Source: Alphaproteobacteria bacterium (GTDB taxonomy: Bacteria; Pseudomonadota; Alphaproteobacteria; Rs-D84). From it: 60,179 bases of DNA. Location of the stretch: positions 1 through 60,179 of the forward strand of contig JAFRSF010000002.1 of assembly GCA_017427715.1 (NCBI GenBank), read 5' to 3'. A program made the translations under genes and the position numbers. The notes under the pieces are model-generated. The model saw only the letters and a program-made list of their open reading frames with translations, did no database searches and had not been told where the DNA came from. Each line of letters opens with the position of its first letter. Positions within the stretch are counted from its first letter, which is position 1. This document shows, piece by piece, positions 1 to 57,092 of this stretch.

Positions 1-16
1 CACACACACACACACA
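1..16. repeat. (CA)n dinucleotide tract, n at least 8
   Basis: Eight CA units open the window and may continue to its left. The sequence just after it (ACTAAGGCGTTGCT) recurs after a shorter AC run at 48106-48130, at the 5' end of another secreted-protein gene. The two genes read this shared sequence in different frames, as expected if the unit number changes by two or a multiple that shifts frame. Confidence 0.8.
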
Positions 17-530
17 ACTAAGGCGTTGCTTAGCATTTTTATTGTTCGTTATAATTCCATATAATTCTTTTGCACTTGATGCATGTGTGCCGAATGATTC
101 TGTGGCGGTTGTATTGACACCGGCAAGTGCATCTAGTGGTCCTACAGGCGTATGGGACAATAGTACACAAACATGGAAAGTTCCTTTTTCTTATGGGACA
201 GTACACGGAATTGCTGCATGTTTAAGTAGTAATTATGGAAAGAAACAAGGCGGAATATATAAAGAAAATAGTGGGATGTTGGTTGATAATGGCACCAAAG
301 TTGTCGGTGGTGAAGCAAACGGTAATCATTGTTGGTGTAAACTGACTTATCCTGTGGTGTCTTATTGGGTTTATGACAGCAGTTATGGTTATGCGGATGC
401 TGCAGGATGTACAGGTTATGGATATGGAACACCAGAGTATGGTTATGGTTGCGCGCAACGTTGTTCTGGACATGTTGGTGGTGGGCCAAGTTATTCAGTT
501 ATGGGTACGGCTTTGTTTAATGCAATTTAA
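1..530 (+). CDS. Secreted Cys-rich protein, 5' end outside window
   Basis: The reading frame is open to the left window edge, so the start is missing. The first visible stretch reads as a basic n-region followed by a hydrophobic core (LRRCLAFLLFVIIPYNSFA), a good signal peptide, so the mature protein of about 140 residues should be exported. It contains the motif GNHCWCKL, shared with the genes at 49037 and 49548 (GTYCWCKM, GQHCWCKI), and a Cys-rich C-terminus ending GTALFNAI. It is therefore a paralog of the DGR target protein, but its 3' end shows no similarity to the DGR template repeat. A CA dinucleotide run lies in or just before the signal-peptide region. The function is unknown. ligA follows 42 nt downstream with its own promoter. 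Confidence 0.7.
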   Translation, partial: HTHTQLRRCLAFLLFVIIPYNSFALDACVPNDSVAVVLTPASASSGPTGVWDNSTQTWKVPFSYGTVHGIAACLSSNYGKKQGGIYKENSGMLVDNGTKVVGGEANGNHCWCKLTYPVVSYWVYDSSYGYADAAGCTGYGYGTPEYGYGCAQRCSGHVGGGPSYSVMGTALFNAI

Positions 531-47376: not shown

Positions 47377-47616
47377 TCAAAAGTGATTTTTACAAAACTT
47401 ACGACCAGAGTGAGTTTTTAGATATATTTCAAAGTTTTTCGCTTTTTGCTCATCATCAAAAGCAATATAACTTTTAATTCTCCATGGTTTGTATTTATTG
47501 GTATGTATAGATTGTCCAGTATTATGTTCTTTTAATCTTTGTTTCAAATCGTTTGTGTAACCAACATAGAAAGTATCGGTATAATTAACTGATTGTAATA
47601 TATAAACGTAGTACAT
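47377..47616 (-). CDS. GIY-YIG domain protein (UPF0213-like)
   Basis: 79 residues forming one GIY-YIG nuclease domain: YYVYILQS and FYVGYTNDLKQRLKEHN give the two strands, the Arg of DLKQRL and the Asn-Gly stretch follow, and PWRIKSYIAF and the Glu in FEIYLK complete it. Single-domain relatives (UPF0213/YhbQ) are common and their targets are mostly unknown. The gene lies between two copies of a tRNA-His 3' end and ends in TGA. Confidence 0.85.
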   Translation of the reverse strand: MYYVYILQSVNYTDTFYVGYTNDLKQRLKEHNTGQSIHTNKYKPWRIKSYIAFDDEQKAKNFEIYLKTHSGRKFCKNHF

Positions 47617-48089: not shown

Positions 48090-49022
48090 GTGAAAGCCGC
48101 AGAAACCTACACACACACAACTAAGGCGTTGCTGAGCTTTTTTGTGTTTGTCTTGGTACTATGTGATTTTGCGCGATGTGCGACAATCAGTGGTCCGGTT
48201 ATAACATTAAATCATAATACAAATCCGTCTCAGGGTAATTGCCCAAATAATTCGTATGTAATAACATTATCAGACACTGCGTATAATAATATGTTATTTG
48301 TGCATGGAATGAATGTTTGTCCCAGCGGTTATTCTAGAATAAAATTGAATGGCGTGACAATTGGCACTGCTACGACAACATTTACACACAATACAACATC
48401 TTCTGGTACATGCAGAAACGGGTATAAACAAATACCATTATTGGTGAACACGACATTTAGTAAATATTACAACAAAAATTGTGTAGACGGCACTGCGTAT
48501 ACGTATCGTCCTGATAATCCGCCTGAAATAGTGCCTGCATATGATGGTGTAATCTTTGGTACACAAATACAAACATGTGAAAACGGATATTTAAATAATG
48601 GTACGTGTGTTTCGTATCAACAGGGAAATTGTCCAGATAATTATCAGGGCATGGCAATAAATGCAAATACGATTATCGCATTAAATAACGGCAATTGCAA
48701 CAGCGGATACACAAAAATAGAAATAGAAAGTCCGTGTCAGGGTGCAGCAACGACATCATCGACATGTATGAAGTTGTGCGAATCGGGTTATGCATATACC
48801 GCGAATGGGACATGTGAAAATATTCAATGTCCATATGGTGGTGGTGTATTTGAATCTGGGGTTGGGCGCAATTATCAGATGTATTCCGGTAAACAAACAA
48901 CCCCGACAATAACGGCCAGGGTCGGTTCAGGTAAATGCTATATCAATTTGGCACCAGGTGCTGCAACTGGCAACGCAATAAATATACGAATGAACGGTAC
49001 AACATATCATTTAACAGATTAA
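48090..49022 (+). CDS. Secreted Cys-rich protein upstream of the DGR target
   Basis: 310 residues starting with GTG (AAGGA lies about 10 nt before). The signal peptide (core LLSFFVFVLVLCDFARC, cleavage near 32) follows an AC-repeat-encoded Thr/His stretch. The mature part has repeated Gly/Asn/Tyr-rich units with a CPxxY/CxxGY pattern (for example CPSGYSRIKLNG, CRNGYKQIPL, CNSGYTKIEI) and ends with a segment (INLAPGAATGNAINIRMNG) resembling the shared C-terminal domain of the window's surface proteins. Function is unknown. The paralogs at 49037 and 49548 follow in what is probably one operon. Confidence 0.75.
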   Translation: MKAAETYTHTTKALLSFFVFVLVLCDFARCATISGPVITLNHNTNPSQGNCPNNSYVITLSDTAYNNMLFVHGMNVCPSGYSRIKLNGVTIGTATTTFTHNTTSSGTCRNGYKQIPLLVNTTFSKYYNKNCVDGTAYTYRPDNPPEIVPAYDGVIFGTQIQTCENGYLNNGTCVSYQQGNCPDNYQGMAINANTIIALNNGNCNSGYTKIEIESPCQGAATTSSTCMKLCESGYAYTANGTCENIQCPYGGGVFESGVGRNYQMYSGKQTTPTITARVGSGKCYINLAPGAATGNAINIRMNGTTYHLTD

Positions 49023-49036
49023 GCAAAGGAGAACTA

Positions 49037-49531
49037 ATGAAAAAACTTATAATAACATTATTTGTATGCGTTGTATACGGCATGCCAACTTATGGTGCAA
49101 ATGTATGTGCAAAAACTGGTACGTATATCGGGGTGTTAAAAAAGGATGTCAATGGTACAGTTTCTGCGACAGATATGACAACCAAATCATGGAAAATATT
49201 ATTTGATTATGACGGGGACAATGTTAACGAAAAAATGATAACAGGTCTGGCATCGTGCAATGGTATAACAGGGACATTTGGGATTTCTGTTACCAATTTA
49301 TACACAGATGCATCAGATGTTGGTACATATTGCTGGTGCAAAATGGAACCTGTTATTACGTATTATACAGCAGAAAACAAACGACCGACCGGAATAACAT
49401 CATATTGGACATTTTTACAGACGTTTAACAGCGAAACTAATTGCGCCAGTGATTGTACATCCGAATGTGCAGATGCTGTTGCCAACAATACAAGTGATTT
49501 TCGTTATAAATTATTTGAAGCAATCTGGTAA
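49037..49531 (+). CDS. Secreted Cys-rich protein, non-diversified paralog of the DGR target
   Basis: 164 residues with a signal peptide (core LIITLFVCVVYGMPTYGA). It shares GTYCWCKM and the C-terminal pattern DCTSECADAVANN...FRYKLFEAIW with the DGR target 17 nt downstream. Its 3' end is AT-rich and unlike the template repeat in DNA sequence, so it is not under the DGR. AAAGGAG precedes the ATG at 49037. Confidence 0.75.
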   Translation: MKKLIITLFVCVVYGMPTYGANVCAKTGTYIGVLKKDVNGTVSATDMTTKSWKILFDYDGDNVNEKMITGLASCNGITGTFGISVTNLYTDASDVGTYCWCKMEPVITYYTAENKRPTGITSYWTFLQTFNSETNCASDCTSECADAVANNTSDFRYKLFEAIW

Positions 49532-49547
49532 ATTACGGGGGAATGAA

Positions 49548-50030
49548 ATGAATAAATATATAAATAAAATAATATTTGTGACATTATTAATAATTGCAAT
49601 TTATCCGGCATACAGTGCGGTTGATATGTGCGTGGCAGATAATTCAACGGCAATTGTATTGGACCCATCGATTGGTGGATCAAATTATAGCAGTAACTCT
49701 ACCACAGCAACATGGTGGACAGTCTTTAATTATGGAACAATTGTGGGTGTATATGCGTGTCTAAGCAGCAAGCAAAACCTGAGCCAATACAATGTGTATA
49801 GCGCAAATAATGGTGTTTTGGTGGATAACAACGTAACAGTTACTGGCGGTGAACAAAATGGTCAACACTGTTGGTGTAAAATAACACACCCGGTGGCTTC
49901 GCTTTGGGGGTTCAACAGCTCGGGCAGTTCGTTGTCGGACTGCGTTTCGCATTGCGCGAATAACTGTGGCAACACCGTCCGGAGCTACGCGGCTTTCCGT
50001 TCTGCGTTGTTTGGTTCGGTCGCGTATTGA
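49548..50030 (+). CDS. DGR target: secreted Cys-rich protein with variable C-terminus
   Basis: 160 residues. A signal peptide (core IIFVTLLIIAIYPAYSA) is followed by a Cys-rich domain with GQHCWCKI. The last 45 residues are encoded by the variable repeat. Residues that differ from the template are 124, 126, 135, 143, 145, 146, 147 and 149; the three Cys (132, 136, 140) and the hydrophobic ending FRSALFGSVA are encoded without A in TR and so are shielded from mutation. The fold is not an obvious C-type lectin. Export makes an exposed or secreted ligand-binding protein likely. ATG at 49548 follows GGGGGA. Confidence 0.85.
   Translation: MNKYINKIIFVTLLIIAIYPAYSAVDMCVADNSTAIVLDPSIGGSNYSSNSTTATWWTVFNYGTIVGVYACLSSKQNLSQYNVYSANNGVLVDNNVTVTGGEQNGQHCWCKITHPVASLWGFNSSGSSLSDCVSHCANNCGNTVRSYAAFRSALFGSVAY
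49891..50023 (+). repeat. DGR variable repeat (VR)
   Basis: It begins CGGTGGCTTCG and ends GGTTCGGTCGC, identical boundaries to the template. Changes from TR: AAC to AGC (codon 124), AAC to GGC (126), AAT to CAT (135), AAC to ACC (143), CAG to CGG (145), AAC to AGC (146), AAC to TAC (147), ACT to GCT (149). All nine substituted bases are A in TR. It is much more GC-rich than the surrounding genes. Confidence 0.95.
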
Positions 50031-50078
50031 TGTCCGTTGGGGCGATATCACGTGTGGCGAAAGGGGCGAATGGACGTT

Positions 50079-50136
50079 TACGCGCAGCGCGTAGCACGTA
50101 GAACGACCCCCCTTTGGGGGGTGCGGCATAAGCCGC
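50079..50136. promoter_or_regulatory. Hairpins downstream of VR
   Basis: Three hairpins: TACGCGC-A-GCGCGTA (50079-50093), CCCCCC-TTT-GGGGGG (50107-50121) and GCGGC-ATAA-GCCGC (50123-50136). DGRs of phage BPP-1 type need a hairpin or cruciform just after VR for efficient retargeting, so one of these is a candidate. Confidence 0.55.
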
Positions 50137-50175
50137 GGGGGGAAAAGACCCACCCATGGTGGGAATTCTATTTAG

Positions 50176-50247
50176 TTTTTGTTGTACCCGTATGACGGTC
50201 AATACGGTAAATACAACAAAAAGGGTTGCACACCGTAACGGTTGTGC
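50176..50247 (+). promoter_or_regulatory. Structured region just before TR
   Basis: TTTTTGTTGTA (50176-50186) pairs with TACAACAAAAA (50212-50222), extended inside by CCGTAT/ATACGG. A second hairpin GCACACCG...CGGTTGTGC (50228-50247) follows directly. It may be the 5' boundary of the template RNA or a terminator for the target operon. Confidence 0.5.
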
Positions 50248-50279
50248 GTCATGACCCATTTGTGGGGTTACTTTTTGTT

Positions 50280-50412
50280 CGGTGGCTTCGCTTTGGGGGT
50301 TCAACAACTCGAACAGTTCGTTGTCGGACTGCGTTTCGAATTGCGCGAATAACTGTGGCAACAACGTCCAGAACAACGCGACTTTCCGTTCTGCGTTGTT
50401 TGGTTCGGTCGC
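50280..50412 (+). repeat. DGR template repeat (TR)
   Basis: 133 nt, identical in length and ends to VR. It holds 24 adenines, mainly in AAC/AAT codons in the VR frame, the usual design that lets one codon become many while avoiding stops. It does not begin with a start codon and is not expected to be translated. TR is followed by CCTTGGG where VR has GTATTGA, giving the usual difference at the 3' initiation site. Confidence 0.95.
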
Positions 50413-50640
50413 TCCTTGGGTAAGGTAATAACTTTGCCACCTAAGACAAAGTTTGGCTAACCTGCAGGACAAAGCGTTGAAACGCTTTTCAGATGTCCGT
50501 ATCAAGATATCTGTTTTATAATGCCTTGCACATCAAAGGCGGGGTGTGTAACCTGTCCTGACCAGACGAATACAATGCGCAGGGGATATCTGGACTAGTA
50601 ATTTGGTGTGTATCGTGATGAACGTCCTGGATATCCAATT
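50280..50640 (+). ncRNA. Predicted TR-containing template RNA
   Basis: After TR come three hairpins: AACTTTG...CAAAGTT (50430-50453), GGACA AAGCGTT...AACGCTT TGTCC (50467-50498) and GGATATC.GGAC...GTCC..GATATCC (50584-50636). No convincing protein frame covers 50413-50669. DGR reverse transcriptases copy a TR RNA whose 3' part is structured and required for priming, which this region fits. Exact ends are not known. Confidence 0.6.
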
Positions 50641-50669
50641 TTAACAATTTTGAACAAAGGACAATATCA

Positions 50670-50996
50670 ATGACATTGGATGAAATTAAAAATTTAAACA
50701 AAGACAAATGTCCAAAATTTTCTTCTTTTATGAAAAATCAACTGCCTATGCCCGGAATAAAGAAACATCTTGATGAAATTCTGAACCGGGAAATCACAGT
50801 GGTTGATTATAGATTACGCAAATCTGTACAAAAAAGTGGGACTGAATGTTTACAAATGCAATTTATCATGGATAACGAAGTATGTGTATTATTTACTGGC
50901 AGTTGCGTTTTAATCAATCAAATTCAAGAAGCAAAAAATAATATACCATTTGCAGGAACAATTGTCAAAATTGACAGGTATTATTCGTTTTCTTAA
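50670..50996 (+). CDS. DGR accessory protein candidate
   Basis: 108 residues between TR and the reverse transcriptase, in the place of Avd. AAAGGA precedes the ATG. Unlike the four-helix Avd, the second half is beta-rich (TECLQMQFIMDNEVCVLFTG, then GTIVKIDRYYSFS), suggesting a small nucleic-acid-binding, OB-like fold. The RT start follows 18 nt after the stop, so the two are probably translated together. I cannot name the family. Confidence 0.65.
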   Translation: MTLDEIKNLNKDKCPKFSSFMKNQLPMPGIKKHLDEILNREITVVDYRLRKSVQKSGTECLQMQFIMDNEVCVLFTGSCVLINQIQEAKNNIPFAGTIVKIDRYYSFS

Positions 50997-51014
50997 AATA
51001 ACAAATATAGAAAA

Positions 51015-51989
51015 ATGAAAACTTATAAACATTTATGGGAACAATTTATTTCCAAAGAAAATTTCGATTTAGCTGCTAGAAAAGCAATCAAAAGCAAAAA
51101 ATCAAAGAAAGAAGTTCAAATATTTTTGGCACACAGCAAAGAATATCTTGATAAATTAAGAAACGATTTAATTATTGGAAAATACAAAACTTCCCAATAT
51201 AAAACTTTTACTATATATGAACCTAAAGAGAGATTGATTTATAAATTGCCGTTATACCCGGATCACATAGTGCATCATGCGTTAATCAATATTTTGGGGC
51301 CAATTTGGCAAAAATCTTTCATTCATGATTCTTATGCGTGCATTCCAGGACGCGGATTGCATGCGGCATCACAAAAGATGATGCATTTTATGCGTCGTAA
51401 TGAATATGTACTGCAATGTGATATTCGCAAATTTTACCCCAGTATAAATCATGAGATTATTATGAATATTTTAAAACGTAAAATTCATGATAATCGTATA
51501 TTAAAGATATTAAATGAAATAATCTGGTCTGTGGGTGGACAAACAAATCTGCCGATTGGTAATTTAACCAGTCAGTGGTTGGGAAATGTTTATCTGAATG
51601 AATTAGACAATTTTATCAAACAAGATTTACATTGTCGTGATTATATCAGGTATTGTGATGATTTTTGTGTGTTTGATAACGACAAACATAAATTACATTT
51701 TTGGGCTAAATGTATATGTGTATTTCTGAAACAAAATATGAAAATGAATTTATCTAGATGTAATATTCATAAAACAACAGACGGGGTTTGTTTTATAGGT
51801 TATCGGCATTTTAAGCATTTTATTTTAATAAAACAAAGCACTGCATATAAATTAAGTAAACGCATAACAAATATCATAGAAAACAAACATTTTAATCCAA
51901 AATCCATCGGACAAATGGCTGCGGCATACGGTTGGACAAAATGGTGTTGCAGTTATAATTTCAGAAACAAAATAAAAATATTCAAATAA
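51015..51989 (+). CDS. DGR reverse transcriptase
   Basis: 324 residues, a single RT domain with no maturase, endonuclease or RNase H part. Catalytic Asp D136 lies in LQCDIRKFYPSIN, the second pair in YCDD (D215-D216). Motif 4 reads IGNLTSQ (181-187), the [IVL]GxxxSQ form typical of DGR RTs rather than QGxxxSP. GYRHF marks motif 7. The Cys in YCDD is uncommon among bacterial RTs. It would copy TR RNA with errors at A and replace VR in the target gene. No Shine-Dalgarno is obvious, consistent with coupling to the accessory gene. Confidence 0.93.
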   Translation: MKTYKHLWEQFISKENFDLAARKAIKSKKSKKEVQIFLAHSKEYLDKLRNDLIIGKYKTSQYKTFTIYEPKERLIYKLPLYPDHIVHHALINILGPIWQKSFIHDSYACIPGRGLHAASQKMMHFMRRNEYVLQCDIRKFYPSINHEIIMNILKRKIHDNRILKILNEIIWSVGGQTNLPIGNLTSQWLGNVYLNELDNFIKQDLHCRDYIRYCDDFCVFDNDKHKLHFWAKCICVFLKQNMKMNLSRCNIHKTTDGVCFIGYRHFKHFILIKQSTAYKLSKRITNIIENKHFNPKSIGQMAAAYGWTKWCCSYNFRNKIKIFK

Positions 51990-53216: not shown

Positions 53217-54035
53217 TTATGGTAATGTTGTGATTTCTTCAACGTCCCAACCATCAAATGTATAACCTTTTTTGGTCGGTACAGTTGGAACATTAAATGT
53301 TGTACCATAATTGCAAGTTGCAGGGGCTGTCGGATTTGCCGAACCACCATCTGTATTCCAGCTTAATGTAATGGTATTAGGTGTTTCGCAACCCGTTGCG
53401 GTACCAGTTGCAGCCGCTGCACCCCCAGTAAATTGAAATTCATCTTCTCCATTATGATTATATCCAGCGTCACAAGTCACAGTATATTGACACGCATTAC
53501 CTACAATAGTTGCAGTACTTAAATGACTATGTTCGCCGTCTGTATAGGCACAATCTTGGTAATTTGCATACAGTGTGATGGCATTTGATGTTGTATTGTT
53601 ATCATCAAATGTCGTCGTGTTAGATGGCAATACACCAGATGCCGGTATGTTAAGATTTTGGTCGGTACTTGAAAAATATCCAGTAAACACCGCGCCAGAT
53701 TTGGTCGGTATTGTGACATTGGTAATCTCATTACCGGTTGTTGCGGAACTATTTGAATACCATCCAGTATTATACTTTTCATATATCGTTCCTGAACCGC
53801 CAGAACCGCCATTTGTCGAATCGTCTAGTGTGATAGTATATATTTTTGGTTCCCACAATGCCTTTAGATATACAGTGGCACCATCATCAGATGTCAATAA
53901 TACCCCATCATTACAACCGGCGGTTGTATCATTTGCACCAATATTTGCAATATTATCACCCGGTGTTGGGTCATCAGCGAATGCCGAACCAACGGTCAAT
54001 GCAATAATGCTGGTTAATAACAGTGTTCTTTTCAT
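53217..54035 (-). CDS. Secreted InlB B-repeat protein
   Basis: 272 residues with a signal peptide (MKRTLLLTSIIALTVGSAFA). It holds at least two Listeria-Bacteroides (InlB B) repeats: ALWEPKIYTITLDDS opens one, and YTFDGWDVEEI closes the last. Cys pairs surround the middle (CQYTVTCDAGY). It is co-oriented with the larger homolog at 54066, 30 nt upstream. Surface or secreted location is inferred; function is unknown. Confidence 0.75.
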   Translation of the reverse strand: MKRTLLLTSIIALTVGSAFADDPTPGDNIANIGANDTTAGCNDGVLLTSDDGATVYLKALWEPKIYTITLDDSTNGGSGGSGTIYEKYNTGWYSNSSATTGNEITNVTIPTKSGAVFTGYFSSTDQNLNIPASGVLPSNTTTFDDNNTTSNAITLYANYQDCAYTDGEHSHLSTATIVGNACQYTVTCDAGYNHNGEDEFQFTGGAAAATGTATGCETPNTITLSWNTDGGSANPTAPATCNYGTTFNVPTVPTKKGYTFDGWDVEEITTLP

Positions 54036-54065: not shown

Positions 54066-57000
54066 TTATTGTTTATCTTCGATAATTCCACGACCGGGTT
54101 CATTCACCACATCCCATCCCACAAAATTATAGCCATTTTTCGATACTGTCTGGACAGGGTTAATCGTCCCACCGTATTGGCACGATGGCGCACCATTCGT
54201 TCCAGTTATTCCATTATCATTATTCCAGTCCAAATAAATCGTATTAACATCCCATGTTGCTGTACACTGTGCATCAACCGCGACATTATAAGTCGTATTG
54301 TTTGTCAAGCCCGTATTTGGTGCGCCATCCGTACCATCAAGATATTTGCATGCCCATCCAGTGAAATGATGACCGGTCTTGGAACAGTTCGCACCATCAG
54401 TATTTGCAACTGTGAATGTTGTTCCGAATGTTTGAGTTATGCTTTGTGGTGGTGTACCTGTGGCGCCCGTACCGCAATCATAAATAACATTGTAATTGAC
54501 CGCACCCCACTTAGAATAAAACCATTTTGCACCCGTTGAACCCGCTGCAATCGCGATAATGGTCGCAGGATTGGTCTGTGGTTGAACGTAATTAGTATCT
54601 GTAATGGTACAAGAATCACCACCGGTTTGTTGTACACTATCATACCTGCACCAACCAGCAAATCCATACCCGTCTTTGATTGGGTTATTCAATTGAACAT
54701 TATCAGCAGCCGTATATGTTGGCGGATTTGTCACCCCAACTGGCAGATTTTGACCATCAGAATCATATGTAATCGGATAATCTATTGCGTTACAATTCGC
54801 ATTAACAACGGCAACATTGGCATTACCGGTTACGCTAAAGTTCGTTGCACCACCCGATGTACCATCTTGACTGTACCCAGAATTACATGTAACGGCACAA
54901 GTGACTTTGTTAGTGTCATAACTGATAGTCGGAACACCTGTTCCATTTGTCACATTACATGTCGCCAATTCACACTGTGGGTTATATGTTCCACCCCCAG
55001 ATGTCATTAAATATCCACTGTCACAACTGGTGATGTAATAACAGGAACTCTGAATATCGTCATTTATACAATCTAGATTGCAACTGCTATGTTCACTGCC
55101 TGCACAACTCTTTATCCACCTGGCATAAAGAGTTGTGTTGGTTGAAAATAATGTTTCTCTATTGGTTAAATCCCCGGTATTTGGTATAGACACAAACTCA
55201 TTTGACATCGTGAAATGTCCGGAACCATCATTTTCAAACCCAGAATAATAATATCCTTTAAAATTGTAACCAGAACGTTCCGGTGGTGTTATGCTGGTGA
55301 TTGCCGTCCCAGTAAGGGATGGATTATCATAAAACCCAACACCATAATGTTCGTATATTGGTCCATTTGTTCCACCGGTTCCGTTGTATTTATTCAATGT
55401 AATCGTGTATACAATTGGTTCCCAATCTGCATAAAGATACAGGATACCATTTTGCAAATCGCTTGAATTAAATAATGTCGCATTGGCATTTGCCGGACCA
55501 TATGGACTGGTCGAATTTGCTGCGCTGGTCGTTATATTTGTACTGCTACAGTTTGTGGGACCAGATTCATTATATGTACATTTTTTCCAACCATTAAGGT
55601 TATAACCAGTCCTTTGTATGTTTGGGGTTGTAGTAATATAAAAATTATTGTTTGTTCTATAGCACCAATATGTGTCGGAACCAGCACCCGCCTGTGTTGC
55701 AGCACAAGTTTGCGCATAAACACTGGCATCTTCCCGATAAAACACAGAAACATTTTTATATTCAAATGAATTACCACCAAATGTGACGTTATCAGCATTT
55801 GCTTGAAAACTCACAGATGCATGACATTGCGATTTTGACGAAGCGCCTTTGACGCAGGGTGTCGAATCATCGTCTGGTGTTTGATGTCCATAACAAGAAT
55901 ATGTACGTGGAAACTTGCCAGATGTTTCAGTTGAACAAGAGTTTATTCCTTGGTCTGATGTAGATTGTGCAAAAGACCCACCTTCGCAGTAAGAATGTTG
56001 TGGACAAACTGCGCATGTTGAACTGTTCGCTGGTAAATAAGTTCCTGCTTCACACGTTATAGGAAAGAAACAATCGCCACCATTTGGAAAATATACTGAC
56101 TCGCCATCTCTGATATAAACAAGTCCATTTGAACCAGTACCGGCCTTAGGATTTGTTGCATATCCATTACACCACATTTGTCTGTTAGTCATATTAAAAG
56201 CGCTACCACATGTTGTTCGTGCTTTGGCAGCTACCGCTGCTTTGAATGAATCTGATAAAGCGGGGGTCGTTGAACCATCATTCCCAGGCCATACTATGCG
56301 TGCAAAAGGCGTGGTATCGTTTTCTGAACATTTAAAAGATATTTCATAACCCCACATTCGTTGATCAACAGTAGACGTTTTATTATAAAAATACTGAAAA
56401 CCAGGGTTGTCTGTCAAAGTCCCTATCAAGCTGCTAACACCACCTACGGGAAAAGTACTAATTATTGATTTGTTATCATTAGAATTTAATAAATCAACAA
56501 GAGATGCACCCGTTTTTGTTACCCAAAAAGTATTTCCATAAGCACTTCCTGCTGATTTTTGTGCTTCAATCAATCCTGCTCTTTTTCGACAAGCCAAAAT
56601 TGATTTGCTAGATGTTGTTGTGGGAAGCGCGCTGACTCTACACACCATATAAACACGGTTCTGATTTGGATAACTTAAATCAGGTGCCAACCAAAATGTG
56701 TCTGTATACCAGTTACTATCTAGCCCCTGAACAGCCAGAGATGGGGTACAATACAATGTGATATTACTATTAACATTGACGGTCCAACCTTCCTTTATAA
56801 CACGACCAGAAAAGCTTGAATTTTCAGTATCTGAACCAATTGGCATATCAGATATTTGTTGTTCAATACATGTCCAATAAGCAAGTTCTTGACCAATGGC
56901 GCATTTACTTGCAACGGTAGGAAATGTTTCTCCAGATGCCGTCGTAAAAGAACCAACAGCCCCACCAGGACATTGATAAGTGACATTAAGATCGTAAGCC

Positions 57001-57092
57001 CAACCAGTAACAGATAGAAACAACCCCACCAACGTGGCAGATAACGTTTTTAATAATCCATTAAATATTGCGAAAAACTGGCTCTTTTTCAC
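54066..57092 (-). CDS. Large secreted InlB B-repeat protein
   Basis: 1008 residues, signal peptide (core LSATLVGLFLSVTGWA). The first 370 residues look like a beta-rich adhesive domain. Then a Cys-rich segment (CPQHSYCEGGSF) and about six InlB B repeats follow: examples are LYADWEPIVYTITL, KDGYGFAGWC, KTGHHFTGWA and KNGYNFVGWD. The repeats form small beta domains used by surface proteins of host-associated bacteria. The gene ends without an anchor motif. Together with 53217 it looks like an operon of exported repeat proteins. Confidence 0.78.
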   Translation of the reverse strand: MKKSQFFAIFNGLLKTLSATLVGLFLSVTGWAYDLNVTYQCPGGAVGSFTTASGETFPTVASKCAIGQELAYWTCIEQQISDMPIGSDTENSSFSGRVIKEGWTVNVNSNITLYCTPSLAVQGLDSNWYTDTFWLAPDLSYPNQNRVYMVCRVSALPTTTSSKSILACRKRAGLIEAQKSAGSAYGNTFWVTKTGASLVDLLNSNDNKSIISTFPVGGVSSLIGTLTDNPGFQYFYNKTSTVDQRMWGYEISFKCSENDTTPFARIVWPGNDGSTTPALSDSFKAAVAAKARTTCGSAFNMTNRQMWCNGYATNPKAGTGSNGLVYIRDGESVYFPNGGDCFFPITCEAGTYLPANSSTCAVCPQHSYCEGGSFAQSTSDQGINSCSTETSGKFPRTYSCYGHQTPDDDSTPCVKGASSKSQCHASVSFQANADNVTFGGNSFEYKNVSVFYREDASVYAQTCAATQAGAGSDTYWCYRTNNNFYITTTPNIQRTGYNLNGWKKCTYNESGPTNCSSTNITTSAANSTSPYGPANANATLFNSSDLQNGILYLYADWEPIVYTITLNKYNGTGGTNGPIYEHYGVGFYDNPSLTGTAITSITPPERSGYNFKGYYYSGFENDGSGHFTMSNEFVSIPNTGDLTNRETLFSTNTTLYARWIKSCAGSEHSSCNLDCINDDIQSSCYYITSCDSGYLMTSGGGTYNPQCELATCNVTNGTGVPTISYDTNKVTCAVTCNSGYSQDGTSGGATNFSVTGNANVAVVNANCNAIDYPITYDSDGQNLPVGVTNPPTYTAADNVQLNNPIKDGYGFAGWCRYDSVQQTGGDSCTITDTNYVQPQTNPATIIAIAAGSTGAKWFYSKWGAVNYNVIYDCGTGATGTPPQSITQTFGTTFTVANTDGANCSKTGHHFTGWACKYLDGTDGAPNTGLTNNTTYNVAVDAQCTATWDVNTIYLDWNNDNGITGTNGAPSCQYGGTINPVQTVSKNGYNFVGWDVVNEPGRGIIEDKQ

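Follow-up and report, generated by a model that had tools for sequence, protein, structure and literature searches.

Does the locus at positions 49,548 to 51,989 of an alphaproteobacterial contig hold a complete diversity-generating retroelement (DGR), and what kind of protein does it act on? We examined it within the window, the whole 60,179-nucleotide (nt) stretch of contig JAFRSF010000002.1 (assembly GCA_017427715.1). By every feature that sequence allows us to test, the locus is a DGR. A variable repeat (VR), a template repeat (TR), a DGR-type reverse transcriptase (RT) and an accessory gene are all present, as an earlier sequence-only reading had proposed, and so is a spacer RNA. We consider it likely that the RT copies TR RNA with errors at adenines, and that the resulting cDNA is substituted for the VR in a Cys-rich protein predicted to be secreted, which alters residues predicted to lie along one face of a helix. 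The parts that carry this reading are as follows.

49548 to 50030, plus strand: target gene (start 49548, stop 50030), 160 amino acids, Cys-rich, signal peptide by eye; the VR is about its last 45 codons
49891 to 50023, plus strand: VR, 133 nt, from direct alignment and a search of its own genome
50280 to 50412, plus strand: TR, 133 nt, from the same alignment and search
50413 to 50669, plus strand: spacer between TR and accessory gene, with a covarying structured RNA core at about 50461-50636, from an alignment of relatives' spacers
50670 to 50996, plus strand: accessory gene, 108 amino acids, predicted OB-like fold, no Avd match
51015 to 51989, plus strand: RT, 324 amino acids, with IGNLTSQ and YCDD

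Direct alignment of the VR and TR is ungapped and shows nine mismatches, all nine at TR adenines: six A>G, two A>C and one A>T. Given 24 A in the 133 TR positions, the chance of this outcome is about 5e-8. The sequence-only reading had counted the same nine differences, with changes to G, C and T all seen, and it had suggested looking for adenine-specific variation between related sequences. That variation is present. P0046, a 94% identical target found by protein search in another public source (longest contig 126 kb), differs from the target at 10 of 160 residues, and all 10 fall within the 14 adenine-bearing codons of the 44 VR codons compared. Outside the VR, the two are identical over their residues. 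All 44 VR-codon residues of P0046 can be reached from the window's TR through adenine changes alone; this is a protein-level comparison of one further allele against the window's TR. P0047, 86% identical to the target, differs outside the VR too and was left out of the allele scoring.

The bias is shared by 25 further loci of related genomes. Across 26 paired loci, 342 of 365 VR/TR substitutions face TR adenines, while A makes up 18.4% of the TR. These pairs were picked by protein motif only, blind to adenines; 26 of 41 loci, our own included, gave a pair, and the other 15 gave none, some being cut by contig ends. An earlier count, 350/374 over 27 loci, drew on loci preselected for adenine bias, and we do not count it as evidence; it omitted L022, L024 and L025, which duplicate other loci, and L023, whose contig begins just before the accessory gene. 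At one relative (L132:4973-5108, the same as L022:3630-3765), the VR is one base short compared with its own TR, which shifts the target frame; this may be a real off-allele or an assembly error.

The RT groups with DGR enzymes. Its frame contains both motifs that the sequence-only reading had named, and the proposed check on its clustering gave the same answer from scores, solved matches and tree. The best solved match is 8ub7 (E 2.1e-40), which we take to be the Bordetella phage DGR RT, followed by 5hhj, "Retron-type reverse transcriptase" (4.7e-20). Among NCBIfam models, TIGR04416 scored 114.2 bits (cut-off 300) and retron_St85 64.1 (cut-off 235). We built a tree of 28 RTs, including 15 gut alphaproteobacterial RTs chosen from 36 read. 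Those 15 form one clade (99/98) nested in a larger one (100/99) that also holds the RTs of vir525, crAssphage LMMB and Bacteroides phage p00; support for the deep branches is weak, and p00 and BPP-1 are among several RTs flagged as long branches. Two group II rows fall outside the larger clade, which contains the window RT. We reject a group II intron, retron or defence RT on the scores and the tree.

Two known systems help to place the locus. With the DGR of Bordetella phage BPP-1 (mtd, avd, TR, brt) it shares the arrangement of TR and VR, change that is specific to adenines, a spacer separating the TR from the RT, and a DGR RT (29% identity by tblastn). The RT of the Caudoviricetes sp. vir525 DGR (host Methanosarcinales, BK063673) is closer at 43.5% identity, and that element also encodes a homologue of the accessory protein (profile E 4.8e-28).

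What the DGR acts on is less familiar. The target scaffold is, by prediction, unusual: helical, Cys-rich, with the mutable residues on one helix face. Its model has a pLDDT of 87.8, with ten-residue blocks from residue 41 at 88-98. The VR forms a strand (121-125) and two helices (129-146 and 148-156) in this model. Mutable residues 131, 135, 138, 139, 142, 143, 145 and 146 of helix 129-146 span an arc of 160 degrees, which was equalled or beaten by 54 of 43758 residue subsets. Conserved Cys 132, 136 and 140 (i, i+4, i+8) flank this mutable face in the predicted model.

Could the target nevertheless be a divergent C-type lectin (CLec), misread by the fold search and the model, in an otherwise ordinary DGR? 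We regard this as rather unlikely. The expectation has precedent: the available parts of PMC8144416, PMC10907252 and PMC10743442 describe DGR variable domains as C-type lectin folds, mostly or systematically, and Roux 2021 (PMC8144416, in part) anticipated that VR domains still lacking characterisation would prove to be new variants of C-Lec. The VR here is at the C-terminus, as usual, and loose patterns found CLec-like motifs in 32 of 61 VR frames of viral DGRs that have the same accessory protein. However, the motif of our target family occurs in 0 of those 61 frames. C-type lectin targets hold their VR on a beta-hairpin and loops (PMC10743442, in part); this is not so in the predicted model, where both long helices follow strands and the VR is on them. 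The target model had no PDB or BFVD fold match, and no C-type lectin chain is among the matches listed. Pfam gave no family for the target itself, and the target profile matched no solved structure at E 1. Against three viral CLec-like target sets the profile gave a probability of 0.10-0.29%, in a test that is low in power and also missed one viral-set pair. The description of the target as a non-lectin-looking, Cys-rich protein stood. A C-type lectin assignment is not supported by the listed fold matches, where none appears, or by the profiles, which is an absence of match and not proof.

A helical, Cys-rich target would set the locus apart from BPP-1, whose target is a CLec tail protein, and from vir525, whose VR protein ends in a GG.W-type, CLec-like C-terminus. 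Cellular DGR targets mostly carry an N-terminal signal peptide or membrane segment and are thought to bind outside substrates, according to the portion of Roux 2021 at hand (PMC8144416). Our target resembles them in its N-terminal signal peptide, assigned by eye, and differs in that the annotated VR regions there are systematically C-Lec folds (same source and portion).

The accessory gene lies between the TR and RT, where the sequence-only reading had placed it. Its product is predicted to have an OB-like fold. In the model, an N-terminal helical part is followed by a strand-rich b-b-b-a-b-b order, unlike the four-helix bundle of Avd. BPP-1 Avd had 0 matches in the genome at E 10, and the same query found Avd in only one of two records annotated with it, so a distant Avd could be missed. 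PF05635, the family to which Avd is tied (PMC10053308, in part), had 0 matches at E 1, and in 14 control genomes it matched two, none over the cut-off. The arrangement also differs from the known systems: Avd precedes the TR in BPP-1, whereas the OB-like accessory follows it here, and the vir525 accessory gene comes after the RT rather than before it.

An accessory gene that is an unrelated neighbour of an RT working without a partner is an improbable alternative. The fold evidence is moderate, and at 40 relatives' loci (wider stretches, examined at 40 of 56 listed accessory places) an RT match was present in 38, with 35 on the accessory's strand, three on the other strand and two loci without an RT. 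Against this, viral loci found via the accessory alone contain a DGR-type RT in 76 of 80 cases (80 examined of 91 confirmed by scan). The RT is always on the same strand (76/76), with 72 before the accessory, two after it and two in one frame. The two one-frame cases (L264:3020-4291 and L266:1082-2356) share the same accessory ends and could come from a single virus. A repeat was found in 62 of the 80 viral loci; these were filtered on an adenine share >0.75, so the figure shows repeat numbers and not bias. The viral accessory relatives form 51 clusters at 90% identity, and phrog_19665, of unknown function, matched 4 of 7 members tested. The accessory profile also has weak similarity to the RT of Bacteroides phage p00, at its C-terminus (i-E 1.8e-4). 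In the order, the accessory gene occurs in 52 of 201 genomes at E <=1e-5, 39 of them in the genus. The match is in two pieces at G111:C5:64105-64456 and G043:C13:441-769, with a TGA inside one, which may reflect decay or sequence error. Wu et al. reportedly named further DGR accessory proteins in NAR in 2018.

Judged by covariation, the spacer between the TR and the accessory gene is a structured RNA. We aligned 20 of the spacers from 27 loci, setting aside five that are long and two near-duplicates. The structure predicted from this alignment has 33 pairs with 95.7% of cells paired, and in 16 of the pairs both sides change; the alignment that yielded the structure also served to score it, which works in its favour. 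Slid alignments were 32-49% paired, and 0 of 500 shuffles reached the observed covariation score, while the count of further pair types was no higher than in shuffles. No Rfam family was found for the spacer; the six window matches listed all lie over or just beside tRNA genes.

These parts also bear on whether the element is a relic, a DGR that once worked and is now inactive in the lineage. Open frames alone do not show activity, the short VR of L022/L132 is of the kind expected of such a relic, and two relatives' accessory frames contain a stop. Yet all parts here are open, the RNA is conserved, and two alleles identical outside the VR differ at 10 VR codons, which makes a relic very unlikely.

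The target belongs to a larger family. In its own genome, 16 protein matches were listed, comprising the target itself, the TR and 14 further matches. Across 12 paralogues the VR-matching part is least alike: its mean identity is 22%, compared with 60% for the 20 residues before it. No third copy of the VR/TR was found in the genome, where three other matches were just 16-17 nt, and no remote VR exceeded 17 nt; three contigs read N at the ends inspected. Gene conversion or recombination with paralogues, instead of mutagenic retrohoming, has the 14 further matches in its favour, but it is scarcely credible given that no other genomic DNA above 17 nt resembles the TR, that the paralogues differ widely in the VR region and that the changes keep to TR adenines. 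The family extends beyond the DGR: at E 1e-5 it is present in 124 of the 151 genus genomes, the largest number per genome being at least 26 matches, while the accessory gene is present in 39 genomes of the genus. At G067:C11:7170-7508 and G095:C2:7289-7609, target-family domains lie inside open frames of about 4050-4110 amino acids, which suggests that the domain is also used in giant surface proteins.

Other features of the window touch this family and the DGR. The list of open reading frames (ORFs) gives the order along the locus as a 310-amino-acid Cys-rich protein, a paralogue, the target with its VR, the TR, the spacer, the accessory gene and the RT.

1 to 530, plus strand: target paralogue at the contig edge, its start inside an (AC)n tract
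48090 to 49022, plus strand: first gene of the likely operon, 310 amino acids, Cys-rich, secreted by eye; from the ORF list, GTG start within a shared leader, leader pattern with 0 mismatches at 48090
48109 to 48118, plus strand: (AC)5 tract near the 5' end of the first gene's coding sequence, in frame as assembled; candidate phase-variation tract
49037 to 49531, plus strand: target paralogue, 164 amino acids, without VR (E 1.8e-5, 30% identity)
50106 to 50122, plus strand: GC-rich inverted repeat 3' of the VR, 7-bp arms and 3-nt loop (item I16 of 18 pairs, low threshold)

Gene order and spacing suggest that the genes here form one operon. The sequence-only reading had placed the target in an operon with secreted paralogs: the paralogue at 49037-49531 is there, and the protein at 48090-49022, which has no Pfam family at E 1, is Cys-rich too and looks secreted by eye. 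The inverted repeat is a candidate counterpart of the stem-loop found 3' of the VR in the BPP-1 DGR.

A shared (AC)n leader precedes many likely secreted-protein genes (window 1-16 and 48109-48118; G000 ends L008-L019 and L035-L099). Of the 68 contig ends readable in this genome, 19 break within the leader or at its edge, which indicates that the assembly was cut at (AC)n tracts; six further ends were masked. Each broken end shows one half of the leader, ..CCGCAGAA..CT(AC)n on one side or (AC)nAACTAAGG.. on the other. The leader is seen whole in three places. In the DGR operon it has (AC)5 and is in frame; the two others, one of which belongs to a target paralogue, have (AC)10 and are out of frame. 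The first gene is in frame at 5 and 8 repeats and meets an early stop at 3, 4, 6 and 7. In these three leaders a 5' coding repeat sets the reading frame, as in phase-variable contingency loci. Dinucleotide-repeat contingency loci carry a short repeat just after the start codon, and repeat number sets the frame. The (AC)n tract matches them in both respects, and differs in that several paralogues carry the repeat, as does the gene that opens a DGR operon, with no switching observed. We infer that frame switching by repeat number may take place. The leader is not established beyond its own genome, because a reversed control pattern matched more genus genomes (6) than the leader did (4 of 156). 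At one contig end (G000:C33, L093), the leader copy has GTTGTAAAA where others have the GTG start, so the gene behind it may lack a start.

From these sequences we infer a cellular function. The mature target would serve as a binding domain outside the cell, its helix face randomised so as to keep pace with a ligand that changes; the OB-like accessory would probably stand in for Avd, binding TR RNA or cDNA; and the first gene's (AC)n tract would switch the operon and the wider paralogue family on and off. On balance, we lean slightly toward a broader view, in which a lineage of reduced-genome gut alphaproteobacteria moved DGR hypermutation from the C-type lectin to a new scaffold, a disulfide-braced helix randomised on one face, with an OB-fold protein in Avd's place as the partner of the RT; this would sit within a family of secreted paralogues that is phase-switched and diversifies the same surface. 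If true, a helical scaffold tolerating up to 14 randomised positions would mean that DGRs can do without the lectin fold, and it would offer a new natural template for protein libraries. Joined to repeat-tract-controlled paralogues, targeted hypermutation would give a 1-Mb genome a rich means of antigen or ligand variation. The OB-like accessory seems to represent a large family of DGR RT partners, most of them unnamed, which would allow a direct test of Avd's role.

How new is this? To the sequence-only reading the element looked new. The class is not, and the cassette is not unique to this genome but recurs across the order; what is unusual here is the target scaffold, the accessory and the joint presence of the repeat-tract leader. 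The available portions of PMC8144416, PMC12875486, PMC10053308, PMC6642488, PMC10743442, PMC10907252 and PMC12306168 do not report this target, this accessory or a DGR of this lineage.

The bearer is, as the sequence-only reading had it, a small alphaproteobacterial genome: 1.01 Mb in 37 contigs, with two of seven RT relatives alphaproteobacterial. The sources of RT relatives include goat rumen and water buffalo reticulum, with others of that kind, which makes a gut origin likely. Genomes of Candidatus Enterousia, in order Rs-D84, are near 0.9-1.0 Mb (PMC12306168, in part). The RT has PHROG hits, and we considered a prophage origin with no prophage finder run. It is not supported, because the neighbours are tRNAs, a thymidine kinase and genes that are presumably rseP-, cdsA-, uppS- and frr-like. 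Unlike BPP-1, borne by a phage, the locus looks chromosomal. A small ORF on the minus strand (47377-47616) looks to us like a GIY-YIG family member. Also on the minus strand, 54066-57092 encodes a 1008-amino-acid Cys-rich protein, secreted by eye, and its neighbour at 53217-54035 is similar to it at the C-terminus.
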